NCBI RefSeq assembly: GCF_027925385.1
Contig: NZ_AP027142.1
Location: forward strand, 372,001-436,000
Length of the DNA: 64,000 bases
Origin: Methylocystis iwaonis
GTDB taxonomy: Bacteria > Pseudomonadota > Alphaproteobacteria > Rhizobiales > Beijerinckiaceae
Direction: 5' to 3'
Part shown: positions 8,452-44,760 of the stretch, piece by piece
How positions within the stretch are numbered: position 1 is the stretch's first letter
Layout of the letters: the number at the start of each line of letters is the position of its first letter
Program-made: the position numbers and the translations under genes
The notes under the pieces: model-generated
The model's input: only the letters and a program-made list of their open reading frames with translations
Told to the model about the DNA's origin: nothing
Databases searched by the model: none

Positions 8452-8494
8452 CGGCGAATCCTTGCCCCCTCCCCGACCCTCCCCCGCTGGCGGG

Positions 8495-9956
8495 CTATCG
8501 GATTCACACATCGTAGAAGGTCAGCGCGGCTCCGAACTTTATTCGTCGAAAGTCGTCGAGGCCCTGGCGCATTACTTTGGGGCCGGGCTTTCCGTAATAG
8601 GCGGTCCAGCCGCCGAGCCTGGCGACGACCCAGGCGGCGAAGGCGAGGCTGCCTTTGCGGTGGGGGTTCTTCTGGCGGGCCGTCGCGCCCTCGAGCTTCG
8701 CCGAGACGGCCTCGAGCAGCGCTTCGTCCTCGGGCTCGAAAGCGTCCGTCAGCAACTGGTCGGTCGCGCCGTCGCGCGCCTTGACCAGTTGCATGACCGT
8801 CACAGCGGCGACCGCCGTCGCCGCCACCAGCTTGATCATCACTTTCGGATCGCAGATGTCGGCCTGCTCGATCTCGAAGCCCGCCGTCTTCAGCGTGCGG
8901 AAGAATTCCTCGATGGTCCAGCGCATTCGATAGAGGTCGATCACCCGGCGCGCCTCGGCCAGGCTCGTCGCCGCATGGGTCGTGAGAAGCCGCCAATGAA
9001 TGGGCGCGACGCCCTCGGCGGCCCCGACCTCGCGCACGTCGACCAAAGTCACGCCGACCGCGTCCGGCAAGTCGCGCGCGCCGTGGCGCGGCTTGCGCAA
9101 AGTGACCGGCGAGACGCGGACCGCGAGCGCCGCCTTGCGCGCCTTGCGTCCCGGAGCCGCCGGGATCTCGGCGACGAAGCGGCCCGCCTCGGCCAATCCG
9201 TCGGCGAAGGGGAACAAAAGCTCGATCGCATCCTCGCCGTCTGCGGCGATCGTCCGGTTCTGGCAGGCGCGCACAATCAGCTCCACGCCGCCCGGACGCT
9301 GCGCGAGATGCGCGTAGATGTCGCTCTCCCGATCCGAGACGACAGTGATCCGCTTCGCCGCCGCGAAATCCTCGCGCGCATGCGTCGCCACATCGAGCCA
9401 GCGCTGCGATTCCTTGTCCGCGAGCGCGCGCGAGCGCCGCGCCGCGACCTTGGCCCCCGTGTCGCGGTTCCAGACCTCGGCATGAGCGAGGCCGAGCAGC
9501 GCGCCCGTGCCGGCGTCGAGCGCCAGGGCCGCGTGCAGCAAAAGGCCGCGCGTCCCGCCGCCCTTGCCGACCGGCCCATAGCCGTTCGCCTGCGCGCGCT
9601 TGCCGCCGAGCGCCAGCTCGCTGGTGTCCTGCGCCACCACTATGTCGCGACCCGCCGCCCGCGCCGCTGTGAGCCCGGCGGCGTGCCGCGCCATCTCCTC
9701 GGCGGTCACCGCAGGATTGCGCAGGAAGCGCGCGAGCCGCACCTCCTGCGCCCGCCGCCCGCCGGCGATCCGACGGATGCGCGCGCACGGCCGCGCGACG
9801 AGGCCCCGATGCAACGAGACCCCCCTTTTTCCAGGCGGCGGTCGCCGAACCGCCCCAGTCCATACGAAATCGCCATGCCCCACCCCGCGAATCAAAACGC
9901 GACCAACGGAATCAAACAGACCCGACCGAGGCAATCACGATGTGTGCATTCGATAG
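8495..9956 (-). mobile_element. IS4-family (IS50/Tn5-like) insertion sequence, IS-A
   Basis: Imperfect 19-bp terminal inverted repeats bound the element: 8495-8513 (CTATCGGATTCACACATCG) and 9938-9956, identical at 17 of 19 positions. The flanks repeat as CGCTGGCGGG on the left and CGCTGGCGCG on the right, an imperfect target duplication of 8-10 bp. The length, 1462 bp, is normal for IS50-type elements, which also carry 19-bp ends. One transposase gene fills it, with its stop inside the left inverted repeat. The element sits in the loop of a hairpin repeat (see findings). Confidence 0.85.
8504..9876 (-). pseudogene. IS50/Tn5-like transposase with an apparent frameshift
   Basis: A DDE transposase with DTSELAL, DRESDIY and the signature YRMRWTIEEFFRTLKT. 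The C-terminal domain (KNPHRKGSLAFAAWVV, then ARLGGWTAYYGKPGPK) matches the Tn5 dimerisation domain. The main frame is open back to 9934, but its first 30 residues look nothing like the family. A second frame from the ATG at 9876 encodes a family-like start, MAISYGLGRFGDRRLEKGG, and joins the main frame at the purine run near 9821-9831 (five A and six G on the coding strand) through a -1 shift. Either one base has been lost, or the ribosome or polymerase slips at this run. Activity is therefore uncertain. Confidence 0.75.
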
Positions 9957-10033
9957 CGCTGGCGCGGGAGAGGGAGCAGGCCGCGGCCTTCATCGGGAAT
10001 GCCGATCGTGAGCGTCCCCTCTCCCGTGAAACG
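9957..10033. repeat. Middle part of a double-hairpin repeat split by two IS elements
   Basis: This 77-bp segment separates IS-A from IS-B. It starts with the right arm of one hairpin (GCGGGAGAGGG) and ends with the left arm of another (CCCTCTCCCGT). The missing arms lie outside the two elements, at 8476-8494 (CCCTCCCCCGC) and 11330-11340 (ACGGGGGAGGG). Put together they form two 11-bp stems with very short loops, the design of repeat family D at 44600. Confidence 0.75.
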
Positions 10034-11323
10034 CAGGGCTGTCCGGGGAATGAGTCGAAAGGTCGCGGGCGCATGCCCGGTTTTCCCGACGGTTGTCGGG
10101 TATTTTCCGGTTGTCGAGACTGGAAAAAAGGACCGGACATGCCCGTGCACTCTACTGTATTCGCCCAACTGCTCAAGCCGGTCGATCGGCGCGCCTTCAA
10201 GCAGATCGTCGAGCGGCATGGCGGCGACGCCTACGACAAATCCTTCAAGAGCTGGGATCACCTCGTCGCGCTCATCTACGCCCAGCTTGCCGGGGTCTCC
10301 AGCCTGCGCGCCCTCGTTCCCGCCTTCAACGCCGACGCGCGCGCGCATTATCACCTCGGGACGCGGCGGCTCGCGCGCACGACCCTTTCCGACGCCAACG
10401 CCCGCCGGCCCGTCGCCGTCTTCGCCGATCTCTTCGCCATGCTCTCCGGCGCGCTCGACCGTCATACGCGCCGGGAGGGCGCGGACATGATCCGCCTCAT
10501 CGATTCGACGCCCATCCCTTTGAGCAAATTCCTCGATTACGCCCGCTCCAACGGCCGCACTCACGGCCTCAAAATGCACGTGGTCCATGACCCGCGCGCC
10601 AATCGGCCCCTTCGCGCGGAAGTCACGCCCGCCAATGTGAACGACATAGAGATCGGCAAGAAAACCGATATCGAGCCGGGCGCCGCTTATGTCTTCGACA
10701 AAGGCTATTGCGACTATCGCTGGTGGACCGAGATCGCCGCGCAAGGCGCTTTCTTCGTCACCCGGCCGAAGGCGAACGCCCGCTTCCGGGCGATCGCCGC
10801 CCGCCCGCTCGACCCCGAAAGCGCGCGGGGCGACGGCTTCGCCGTGATCGCCGACGAGGAGGTGGCGCTGGCCAGCAAAGGCGATTCCAAGCTGCCCATG
10901 CCGCTGCGGCGCATCACCGTGGAAAGAGACGAGGCCAAAGGCCGCATCGTCCTCATCGTCAACGACATGCGCCGCCCGGCCGCGGAAATCGCCGCGCTCT
11001 ACAAGGGCCGCTGGGCAATCGAGCTGCTGTTCCGTTGGATCAAGCAGCATCTCAACATCAAGAGCTTCATCGGCGAGGCCGAAAACGCCGTGCGCCTGCA
11101 GCTCTTCGCCGCGATGATCGCCTTCACCCTGCTGCGCATCGCCGCCTGCGTCCACAAGATCGACATGGCGGCACTGCGTTTCGCCGAGCTCGTCGGCCGC
11201 TTCCTCTTCGACCGCCGGCCGATCGCGCTTATCGACAAGCCGCCAATCAGGCCCAAGCCCGGCCGAGACTTCTCTAGTCTGCAGCTCCAGCTCGCGGCCC
11301 TATGATTTCCCCGGACAGCCCTG
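10034..11323 (+). mobile_element. IS4-family insertion sequence, IS-B, complete
   Basis: Perfect 17-bp terminal inverted repeats, 10034-10050 (CAGGGCTGTCCGGGGAA) and 11307-11323, bound a 1290-bp element. Both ends are flanked by the same 9-bp direct repeat CGTGAAACG (10025-10033 and 11324-11332), a perfect target-site duplication. One intact transposase gene fills it. Perfect ends, a perfect duplication and an open gene indicate a recent insertion of a potentially active element. Confidence 0.93.
10139..11305 (+). CDS. IS4-family transposase of IS-B
   Basis: A 388-residue DDE transposase. The N-terminal region MPVHSTVFAQLLKPVDRRAF, with KSWDHLVALIYAQLAG, is the DUF4372-type domain found in one IS4 subgroup. 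The catalytic core shows LIDSTPIPL (first Asp), VFDKGYCDY (second Asp) and YKGRWAIELLFRWIKQHLNIK (Glu). The frame is open far upstream, but this ATG begins the recognisable domain and lies about 90 bp inside the left inverted repeat. No frameshift or stop interrupts it. It differs from the transposase of IS-A next door, so the two elements arrived independently. Confidence 0.93.
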   Translation: MPVHSTVFAQLLKPVDRRAFKQIVERHGGDAYDKSFKSWDHLVALIYAQLAGVSSLRALVPAFNADARAHYHLGTRRLARTTLSDANARRPVAVFADLFAMLSGALDRHTRREGADMIRLIDSTPIPLSKFLDYARSNGRTHGLKMHVVHDPRANRPLRAEVTPANVNDIEIGKKTDIEPGAAYVFDKGYCDYRWWTEIAAQGAFFVTRPKANARFRAIAARPLDPESARGDGFAVIADEEVALASKGDSKLPMPLRRITVERDEAKGRIVLIVNDMRRPAAEIAALYKGRWAIELLFRWIKQHLNIKSFIGEAENAVRLQLFAAMIAFTLLRIAACVHKIDMAALRFAELVGRFLFDRRPIALIDKPPIRPKPGRDFSSLQLQLAAL

Positions 11324-11423
11324 CGTGAAACGGGGGAGGGACAGGGAGGGGGGCTTCCAGCGCTGAGAATATTGACATGCCGGCGCCCCCTCGGCCATTT
11401 GCGGGAGACACCCGAGAGCTCTG

Positions 11424-11618: not shown

Positions 11619-11671
11619 AACAAAGGCCGCCCCTGGGCCGGCCCAGAGTGCTGACAAGTGGCGCCGACGCC

Positions 11672-11790
11672 CCTCGTGCTTCGAGACGCCTGCTGCGCAG
11701 GCTCCTCAGCATGAGGAGCTTCTGCAACTTCGCCAAACACTTAGGCCTCATCCTGAGGAGGGCGCGAAGCGCCCGTCTCGAAGGACGAGG
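11672..11790. repeat. Palindromic intergenic repeat, family E copy 1
   Basis: The left half contains TTCGAGACGCCTGC, GCAGGCTCCTCAGCATGAGG and the right half CCTCATCCTGAGGAGGGCG, CGCCCGTCTCGAAGGA. The two halves are inverted copies, each with its own inner hairpin. The same structure occurs at 46021-46140 between fabA and fabB. It lies between the DUF1289 gene and the end of the peroxiredoxin gene. Confidence 0.75.
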
Positions 11791-11849
11791 CCGCCTCGCA
11801 GGTTTGTCGACGAACTGGGCCGACCCCGCTGGGGCCGGCCTTGCGCGGC

Positions 11850-23688: not shown

Positions 23689-24056
23689 GAAAACCCCTCT
23701 CGTCGAATGCCCCCATTCCGGCGAATCACCGGCCGCCCGAGACGATAACAACCGCCTACCGTGGAGATGTTGAGCCTTGCGCTAGGCGAGGCCGGGATGA
23801 TTTCAAGGCGTAACGGCCACGATTGAGGCGGGCTTGCCGCAATCATGTTGTCCGATATGCAGGAGCGAATGTTGCGCCTGCCATACCATTTCCGTTTGAT
23901 CAGCTCGCACCGGGGAATGCAGAGCCACAAAAACGCGGGTTTTACTCAGCGCCCGTCATTGCGAGCGAAGCGAAGCAATCCAGGGCGGCGATGCGGCCCT
24001 GGATTGCTTCGTCGGCTCCGCCTCCTCGCAATGACGGCGGGTCGGATGATCGCGCG
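23689..24056. other. Intergenic gap of 368 bp, no gene seen
   Basis: Between the small secreted gene and the oxidoreductase gene. The right third is repeat A2 (23953-24037). The left part contains only short overlapping frames with no ribosome site or protein-like composition; it should carry the promoter of the minus-strand small gene. Confidence 0.6.
23953..24037. repeat. Palindromic intergenic repeat, family A copy 2
   Basis: The outer arms are CCGTCATTGCGAGCGAAGC and CTCCTCGCAATGACGG, and the inner arms GCAATCCAGGGC and GCCCTGGATTGC. It ends about 20 bp before the stop of the oxidoreductase gene and could serve as its transcription end. Confidence 0.88.
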
Positions 24057-38777: not shown

Positions 38778-38930
38778 ACGAGATCCGCTTGATTGGTTCG
38801 GCGCCATTCCCGACGCTCGCAAAGCGAGCGATCGGGAATCGAGAGCCAAATCAGCGTATTTGCGGCTCTGGATTTCCGGTCGGGCTTCCAGCCCGCCGGG
38901 AATGACATCCCCCAATGCGAGCTGTTCATG
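38778..38930. repeat. Palindromic intergenic repeat, family B copy 2
   Basis: The core palindrome 38803-38906 has arms CCATTCCCGACGCTCGC and CGCCGGGAATGAC, with inner arms GAGAGCC and GGCTCTGG. It is preceded by the conserved arm CGAGATCCGCTTGATTGGTT and followed by AATGCGAGCTGTTCA, which runs directly into the start codon of the DUF123 gene at 38928. Confidence 0.85.
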
Positions 38931-44599: not shown

Positions 44600-44760
44600 C
44601 CGCCCTCATCCGCCCCTCGCTGACGCGAGGGCCACCTTCTCCCGTAAACGGGAGAAGGAATCGCGCTGAAACTTTGTCGTTCAAAAACCTTGGGGTTCTC
44701 CCTTCTCCCGCTTGCGGGAGAAGGTGGCCCCTGCGTCAGCAGGGGTCGGATGAGGGCGGG
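44600..44760. repeat. Double-hairpin intergenic repeat, family D
   Basis: Two hairpins (CCTTCTCCCGTAAACGGGAG and CCTTCTCCCGCTTGCGGGAG) are enclosed by outer arms CGCCCTCATCCGCCCCT and AGGGGTCGGATGAGGGCGGG, so the whole 160 bp can also fold as one long inverted repeat. It separates the convergent SH3 and irr genes. The two IS elements at 8.5-11.3 kb interrupt a repeat of the same design. Confidence 0.88.

Follow-up and report, generated by a model that had tools for sequence, protein, structure and literature searches.

The transposon Tn5 has a weak target preference and is nearly target-blind, and the insertion sequence (IS) IS231A has the target consensus GGG-N5-CCC and is, to our knowledge, not bound to repetitive extragenic palindromic (REP) sequences. 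REP-bound elements are known from several families, and six elements with all their copies in REPs are reported by Tobes and Pareja (2006, PMC1525189). IS1397, ISKpn1, and ISPsy8 are REP-specific elements of the IS3 family, and IS621, ISPa11, ISPpu9/10, and ISRm19 of the IS110 family (PMC1525189). Elements of the IS110 family use a bridge RNA. In the IS4 family, ISRm22 of Sinorhizobium meliloti (IS4Sa subgroup) has 10 out of 10 counted copies in REPs, at the axis of the palindrome, with imperfect duplications attributed to recombination between copies, and Tn5 target sites are described as often palindromic (PMC1525189). A strong apparent specificity for target arms is noted for some IS4-subgroup elements and ISRm22, and IS231A is listed as an IS4-family element with insertion specificity, in a subgroup with duplications of 10–12 bp (De Palmenaer et al. 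2008, PMC2266710). Here, two further elements, named IS-A and IS-B, are described from a double-hairpin REP of Methylocystis iwaonis (contig NZ_AP027142.1). They were found in a stretch of 64 kb, the window, whose positions serve as coordinates throughout. REP targeting by the IS4 family is already known from ISRm22; the present elements are a new case and extend it to a Tn5-like clade.

The genome contains 14 near-identical copies of IS-A, 13 of which have both ends and are regarded as complete, and 15 complete copies of IS-B with both ends, together with one 709-bp piece. The IS-A copy with a missing end (L014) and the IS-B piece (L034) stand outside the count of 28 complete copies, and the surviving flank of the former is a REP half. 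A hairpin score of at least 7 was found at the insertion point of 13/13 complete IS-A and 14/15 complete IS-B copies (27/28), the exception (L033, IS-B, score 4) resembling a decayed repeat. By comparison, in a 400-kb sample of this genome, 2.1% of the positions score at least 7 and 0.87% at least 8. The preference of IS-A and IS-B for the axis is genuine and general in this genome. The sequence-only reading, which had proposed from the window that the interrupted repeat is REP-like and attracts both elements, and that other copies should be checked for similar flanks, is borne out in these respects.

As a control, an IS3-type element from this genome was used, and none of its six scored copies lies at an axis (scores 2 to 5). 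The six belong to a first group of seven copies, the seventh (L335) being without the shared seed, and other groups (including L343–L346) lie outside this count. It could be argued that targeting is loose and that selection purged the genic copies, leaving those in harmless intergenic repeats, as REPs are by definition mostly intergenic and bacterial genes are generally dense. This explanation is highly improbable. The complete copies within each element are ~100% identical and the insertions are therefore recent, the insertion is precise to 1–2 bases at the axis, the scored control copies are off axes, and two other hairpin families of the genome, described below, are without any of the 28 copies.

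In the window, a single double-hairpin repeat has one insertion element at the axis of each hairpin. The arms of hairpin 1 are located at 8477..8487 (CCCTCCCCCGC) and 9964..9974 (GCGGGAGAGGG), both on the plus strand and both read from the sequence; the hairpin is intact in the same-species genome G103, with an orthologous repeat in the same-genus genome G118. Between them, IS-A (8495..9956, minus strand, 1462 bp, Tn5/IS50-like) has the ends CTATCGGATTCACACATCG and CTATCGAATGCACACATCG and an open reading frame (ORF) for a DDE transposase with a YREK motif (8507..9934, minus strand, 476 codons, exact start uncertain). Its target duplication has CGCTGGCGGG on the left (8485..8494) and CGCTGGCGCGGG on the right (9957..9968), the left side being the shorter by 2 bp and the right side identical to the empty site of G103. 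The arms of hairpin 2 are located at 10017..10027 (CCCTCTCCCGT) and 11330..11340 (ACGGGGGAGGG), again on the plus strand, and 10 of the 11 positions form Watson–Crick pairs in each of the two hairpins. IS-B (10034..11323, plus strand, 1290 bp; copy L021) has terminal repeats CAGGGCTGTCCGGGGAA, is IS4Sa-like with ends identical to those of ISRm16, and carries a transposase gene for 388 amino acids (10139..11305, plus strand) with DUF4372 and DDE_Tnp_1 domains and a YREK motif. It is flanked by the 9-bp duplication CGTGAAACG at 10025..10033 and 11324..11332. When re-read from the sequence, the limits of both elements and the hairpins hold as first described, and so does the position of both elements at the axis. 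The loop-sized target duplications TGGC and GAA once proposed do not, as other copies show duplications of 10–11 and 9 bp. An intact repeat of the same design, expected near 44600, was found as two hairpins of a used stem class at 44635..44658 (CCTTCTCCCGTAAACGGGAGAAGG) and 44701..44724 (CCTTCTCCCGCTTGCGGGAGAAGG).

The same locus of G103 has the double hairpin without either element, with the IS-A duplication present once, as CGCTGGCGCGGG. Hairpin 1 of G103 is identical to that of the window in every letter, and hairpin 2 has one base changed in the left arm. G118 likewise has the uninterrupted repeat, so that the predicted empty site exists in relatives. Neither transposase was found in three other same-genus genomes examined. 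Within the genome itself, too, the target repeat occurs without an element, one stem class having 71 intact members.

The repeats used by the copies have related stem variants (CCCTCYCCCG, CCTTCTCCCG, CCTCTCCCCG, and CCCTCCCCGTAAAGG), and the copies differ in the variant. Two more double hairpins are doubly occupied, the one by two IS-A copies with a gap of 69 bp and the other by an IS-A and IS-B pair, as in the window, with a gap of 72 bp. A perfect 9-bp duplication flanks 10/15 complete IS-B copies, and a perfect duplication of 10–11 bp flanks 8/13 complete IS-A copies. The 9 bp of IS-B are centered on the axis, exactly in the case of three-base loops and within half a base on either side in the case of four-base loops; for instance, on the same stem with a four-base loop the duplication is CGCAAGCGG in L027 and CCGCAAGCG in L029. 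For IS-A, the center of the 10 or 11 bp coincides with the axis or lies about one base from it. Since the duplications are centered near the axis, the staggered cuts flank the loop and lie inside the upper stem on either side of it. Unlike duplications were seen at the flanks of L007, L008, L013, L019, L020, and L031, and they may reflect recombination or inversion of copies between REPs.

The assignment of both elements to the IS4 type, made from the sequence alone, was confirmed by family profiles and motifs. The IS-A transposase scores 265 bits with NCBIfam NF033590 (IS4 equivalog, cut-off 160) and that of IS-B 225 bits with NF033592 (IS4 equivalog, cut-off 115); each is a single DDE ORF, with the Y(2)R(3)E(6)K motif at residues 335 and 288, respectively. 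A duplication of about one helix turn, an IS4-family trait, is found in both. In a search of the Protein Data Bank (PDB), a profile of IS-A and five relatives matched Tn5 transposase (E value 1e-51, profile positions 33–420 of 443), and all six PDB sequences matched were Tn5 transposase or its inhibitor; the respective search with the IS-B-type profile gave no match among solved structures. The ends of IS-A agree with those given for the IS50 row, CW------Y---CA-A--W- (PMC2266710), except for position 19 (G). By the profile match, IS-A is assigned to the Tn5 group. It differs from Tn5/IS50 in being almost exclusively REP-targeting and in its duplication, which lies outside the 8–9 bp of the IS50 row (PMC2266710), with 10–11 bp in its own copies and 8–12 bp as called in relatives.

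IS-B agrees with the IS4Sa row (CA------T ends, 1150–1750 bp, duplication of 8–10 bp) in its ends CAGGGCTGT..., its 1290 bp, and its 9-bp duplication. As far as the description goes, it resembles ISRm22 in family, IS4Sa traits, and insertion at the REP axis, but the duplication reported for ISRm22 is 6 bp (PMC1525189). The nearest named relative found is ISRm16 of S. meliloti (IS4 family), with ~60% transposase identity, an identical terminal repeat CAGGGCTGTCCGGGGAA, and 9-bp duplications. Among 10 ISRm16-like loci (S. meliloti, S. fredii, Rhizobium, and Mesorhizobium plasmids), eight have a duplication of at least 8 bp and five of these eight are in palindromes. They are less strict than IS-B, as the other three score below 7, L388 (7-bp duplication) scores 5, and L385 is without a duplication. 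The REP-specific elements of the IS3 and IS110 families named above differ from IS-A and IS-B in transposase family. A limited literature search, with most subscription journals outside its reach, revealed no report of REP targeting by IS50/Tn5-group elements or ISRm16, and passages of PMC3733652 and a term search of PMC12306157 yielded nothing on IS-A or IS-B.

Relatives were sampled from 99 genomes of the family, 397 of the order, 398 of the phylum, and plasmid records; a scan of named genomes covered the IS-A type and the best 80 of 207. Out of 142 loci, ends were called in 79 (60 of IS-A type and 19 of IS-B type), 56 had no clear ends, and seven ran off the contig. The 79 callable loci, to which all counts refer, represent 70 distinct targets. 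A hairpin score of at least 7 was found in 38/52 IS-A-type and 9/18 IS-B-type distinct sites, compared with 1.9% of 4200 random positions in the same loci. The 52 include one element of the own genome, L015, and also L136, whose ends were misplaced in the automatic call and without which the count becomes 37/51. Nine loci without a usable duplication, outside the counts except for L136, were read by the ends of their siblings, and by eye all nine show two REP-like halves. The stem at the axis varies with the host: many have CCCTCTCCC, whereas Rhodopseudomonas palustris has GGCCGGGCTCGTCCCGGCC, Caenispirillum GCCCGGCCTTGAGCCGGGC, and Massilia TTCCCGCGCAGGCGGGAA, with TCCCTGCGAACGCAGGGA as a further one and CCGGGCTTGACCCGG for IS-B types.

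The candidate rule that all IS4 relatives target palindromes was rejected, with 14/52 IS-A-type and 9/18 IS-B-type sites scoring below 7. The misses include L145 and L147 (31% identity) and those of Bradyrhizobium BTAi1/BR13661 (65% best-segment identity to IS-A). Among the phylum-wide IS-B-type sites listed, 7/8 score below 7. The IS-A-type relatives L202, L204, and L205, which are more distant and differ in their ends, score 1–2; of the 10 phylum-wide IS-A-type loci examined, which are outside the 52, ends were called in three, all off-palindrome.

When 42 IS-A-type rows were placed on a midpoint-rooted tree, both deep branches showed palindrome targeting and the misses were scattered tips, even among identical elements; six GG-type targets show weak clustering (21/500 shuffles as low). 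This distribution fits palindrome targeting as an old property, with leakage, of the clade with CTA...CACA ends. Around 39 palindromic IS-A-type sites, C is found in 94% two bases outside the duplication, with pyrimidine neighbors and the mirrored pattern on the other side. In 13 off-palindrome IS-A-type sites the motif is weaker (C in 73%), and a pyrimidine occupies 94/130 edge positions (p = 4e-7; L145 and L147 were dropped before this count). Three off-palindrome ISRm16-like sites have a pyrimidine at 25/30 edge positions.

The own genome also has two copies of a second Tn5-like element, which shares 48% identity with IS-A. The one (L015) is at the axis of CCCTCCCCGTAAAGGGGAGGG, and the other (L016, score 3) is in a repeat seemingly interrupted by another short palindrome.

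Taken with the observed insertion at the axis, the empty sites, the symmetric motif, and the absence of copies from two other stable hairpin families, these data make it probable that the transposases share a preference for symmetric C/T-rich half-sites, of which REPs supply both, with insertion and duplication at the axis. IS-A and IS-B are cut-and-paste DDE elements, different members of the IS4 family, and would have this target preference in common. The half-sites would flank the duplicated spacer of 9–11 bp, for IS-A roughly as YCY|CCC ... GGG|RGR, and REPs of the form CCCTCYCCC-loop-GGGRGAGGG, with close stem variants, would offer two inverted half-sites at the right spacing; nearly every insertion would therefore fall at a palindrome axis and duplicate it. 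On double-stranded DNA, each protomer of the transposase dimer may recognize one half-site, and REP targeting may persist because such sites lie between genes.

A different explanation, favored by the sequence-only reading, is that the folded REP is recognized, as an extruded cruciform or single-strand hairpin, and the element is joined into its loop. The position of the insertions, on the axis or 1–2 bases away, and the very different stems used by relatives in other genera (GGCCGGGCTCGTCCCGGCC, TCCCTGCGAACGCAGGGA, and CCGGGCTTGACCCGG) speak for it. Hairpins that are not used, however, speak against it. The first unused family, GCAATCCAGGGC-N-GCCCTGGATTGC (GCAATCC family), has 53 intact sites genome-wide, one of them at window position 23975. 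The second, approximately TTCCCGA-CGCTCGC-loop-GCGAGCG-TCGGGAA, has 10 copies in 464 kb (among them window positions 38807 and 52746, and L115, L117, L125, L126, L130, L131, and L132), and some of these have the core CGCGAAGCG or CGCAAAGCG and the loop in common with the targeted REPs. Inspection of the flanks of all 28 complete copies placed none of them in either family. In single-strand folding, the unused families are the more stable ones (−14.7 and −17.0 kcal/mol) compared with used repeats (−11.0, −10.4, and −9.1 kcal/mol). The used CCCTCYCCCG class has 71 intact members by exact pattern and, by reading of the insertion flanks, 18 more that are clearly interrupted, or 21 with two hybrid sites and one decayed site. 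Compared with the 0/53 of the first unused family, the interrupted fraction is 18/89 (Fisher p = 1e-4) or 21/92 (p = 4e-5).

Two simpler candidates were also rejected. Attraction by any hairpin is incompatible with two large families lacking the 28 copies and with the kinds of hairpin present, as 628 of 639 sampled axes with a score of at least 8 are of other kinds (as judged by coarse stem patterns, which miss some members). The 9-bp core alone fails as well: out of 40 occurrences of CGCGAAGCG in 464 kb, 34 are not part of a hairpin, and 0/28 complete copies are found at such positions.

Sequence matrices distinguish the used from the unused repeats. For IS-A, a sequence-only, two-fold-symmetric matrix was built from 48 sites of relatives (L136, L145, L147, and L015 were dropped beforehand). 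The 13 own sites score at least 14.7 at the best placement around the axis, a value reached by 19 loci in 464 kb, of which 15 are palindromic, and the unused families range from −6.9 to 5.6. Similarly, a matrix from eight ISRm16-like sites, three of them non-palindromic, ranks REPs top for IS-B. The own median is reached by seven loci in 464 kb, all seven palindromic, and the lowest own score by 24, of which 10 are palindromic, with the unused families at −9.2 to 2.6. The claim that folding attracts the elements, as a cruciform or single strand, is not supported by the comparison, since more stable hairpins are left unused and the matrices pick the used REPs and score the unused families low. 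The motif is also retained in off-palindrome insertions of the IS-A and ISRm16 types, and IS-A is homologous to Tn5 transposase, which acts on double-stranded DNA. Recognition of the folded form is consequently judged unlikely, and a structural contribution to target choice is possible but not needed, being weakened by the unused hairpins.

Several results weigh against half-site recognition as the whole explanation. Among the loci at or above the lowest own score on the matrices, 4/19 (IS-A) and 14/24 (IS-B; 7/17 at the second-lowest score) are non-palindromic, and the own insertions exceed these loci in palindromes, which is what folding would lead one to see (for IS-A, p = 0.046; for IS-B, p = 4e-5 at the lowest and 0.004 at the second-lowest score; the values are rough, as the loci are treated as equal targets although palindromic loci score higher). 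Own scores are lower when taken at the exact duplication instead of the best placement, with 9.4–17.0 for IS-A and 4.2–18.2 for IS-B. When right arms were swapped between the sites of relatives in 300 shuffles, scores of at least 7 dropped from the real 38/52 to a mean of 13.3 (maximum 21) for the IS-A type, and from 9/18 to 2.05 (maximum 5) for the IS-B type. The arms of one site therefore match each other, far better than those of different sites, again in favor of the folded form. Stems change across genera and self-complementarity stays, and one fixed motif is no explanation. The nine off-palindrome IS-B-type sites (of 18) are without pyrimidine bias (48/90). Motif and palindrome are confounded: any strong motif with two-fold symmetry comes close to being a palindrome, and the two explanations are therefore not fully separable from genome data.

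The use of the same repeats by two different transposases could also be due to a REP-bound host protein, such as gyrase or IHF, that recruits both; DNA polymerase I, gyrase, and IHF are reported to bind REPs (PMC1525189). This is improbable, as matrices derived from other species already predict the sites and the motif persists in the off-palindrome insertions of the IS-A and ISRm16 types. Sequence half-sites are the preferred explanation. A wider proposal, offered with considerable doubt, is that a whole Tn5-like clade and, separately, part of an IS4Sa-like clade read either two-fold symmetry or a transient cruciform, in combination with just 2–3 bp of sequence at each edge. If this is true, lineages would adopt the palindromic repeat of their host, the target sequence shifting and the axis staying.

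Owing to its near target-blindness, Tn5 is a standard tool for mutagenesis and for preparing sequencing libraries. A natural Tn5 cousin that is almost confined to REP axes and has sites in many genera provides a comparative handle on where Tn5-type transposases encode target choice. In this genome, a single REP class is the landing site of both element groups, and REP-rich genomes might bear bursts of ISs with little damage.

Beside the IS pair of the window, at ~11641–11820, a further dispersed repeat is located, with many listed matches of 84–94% identity in the own genome, G103, and G118.

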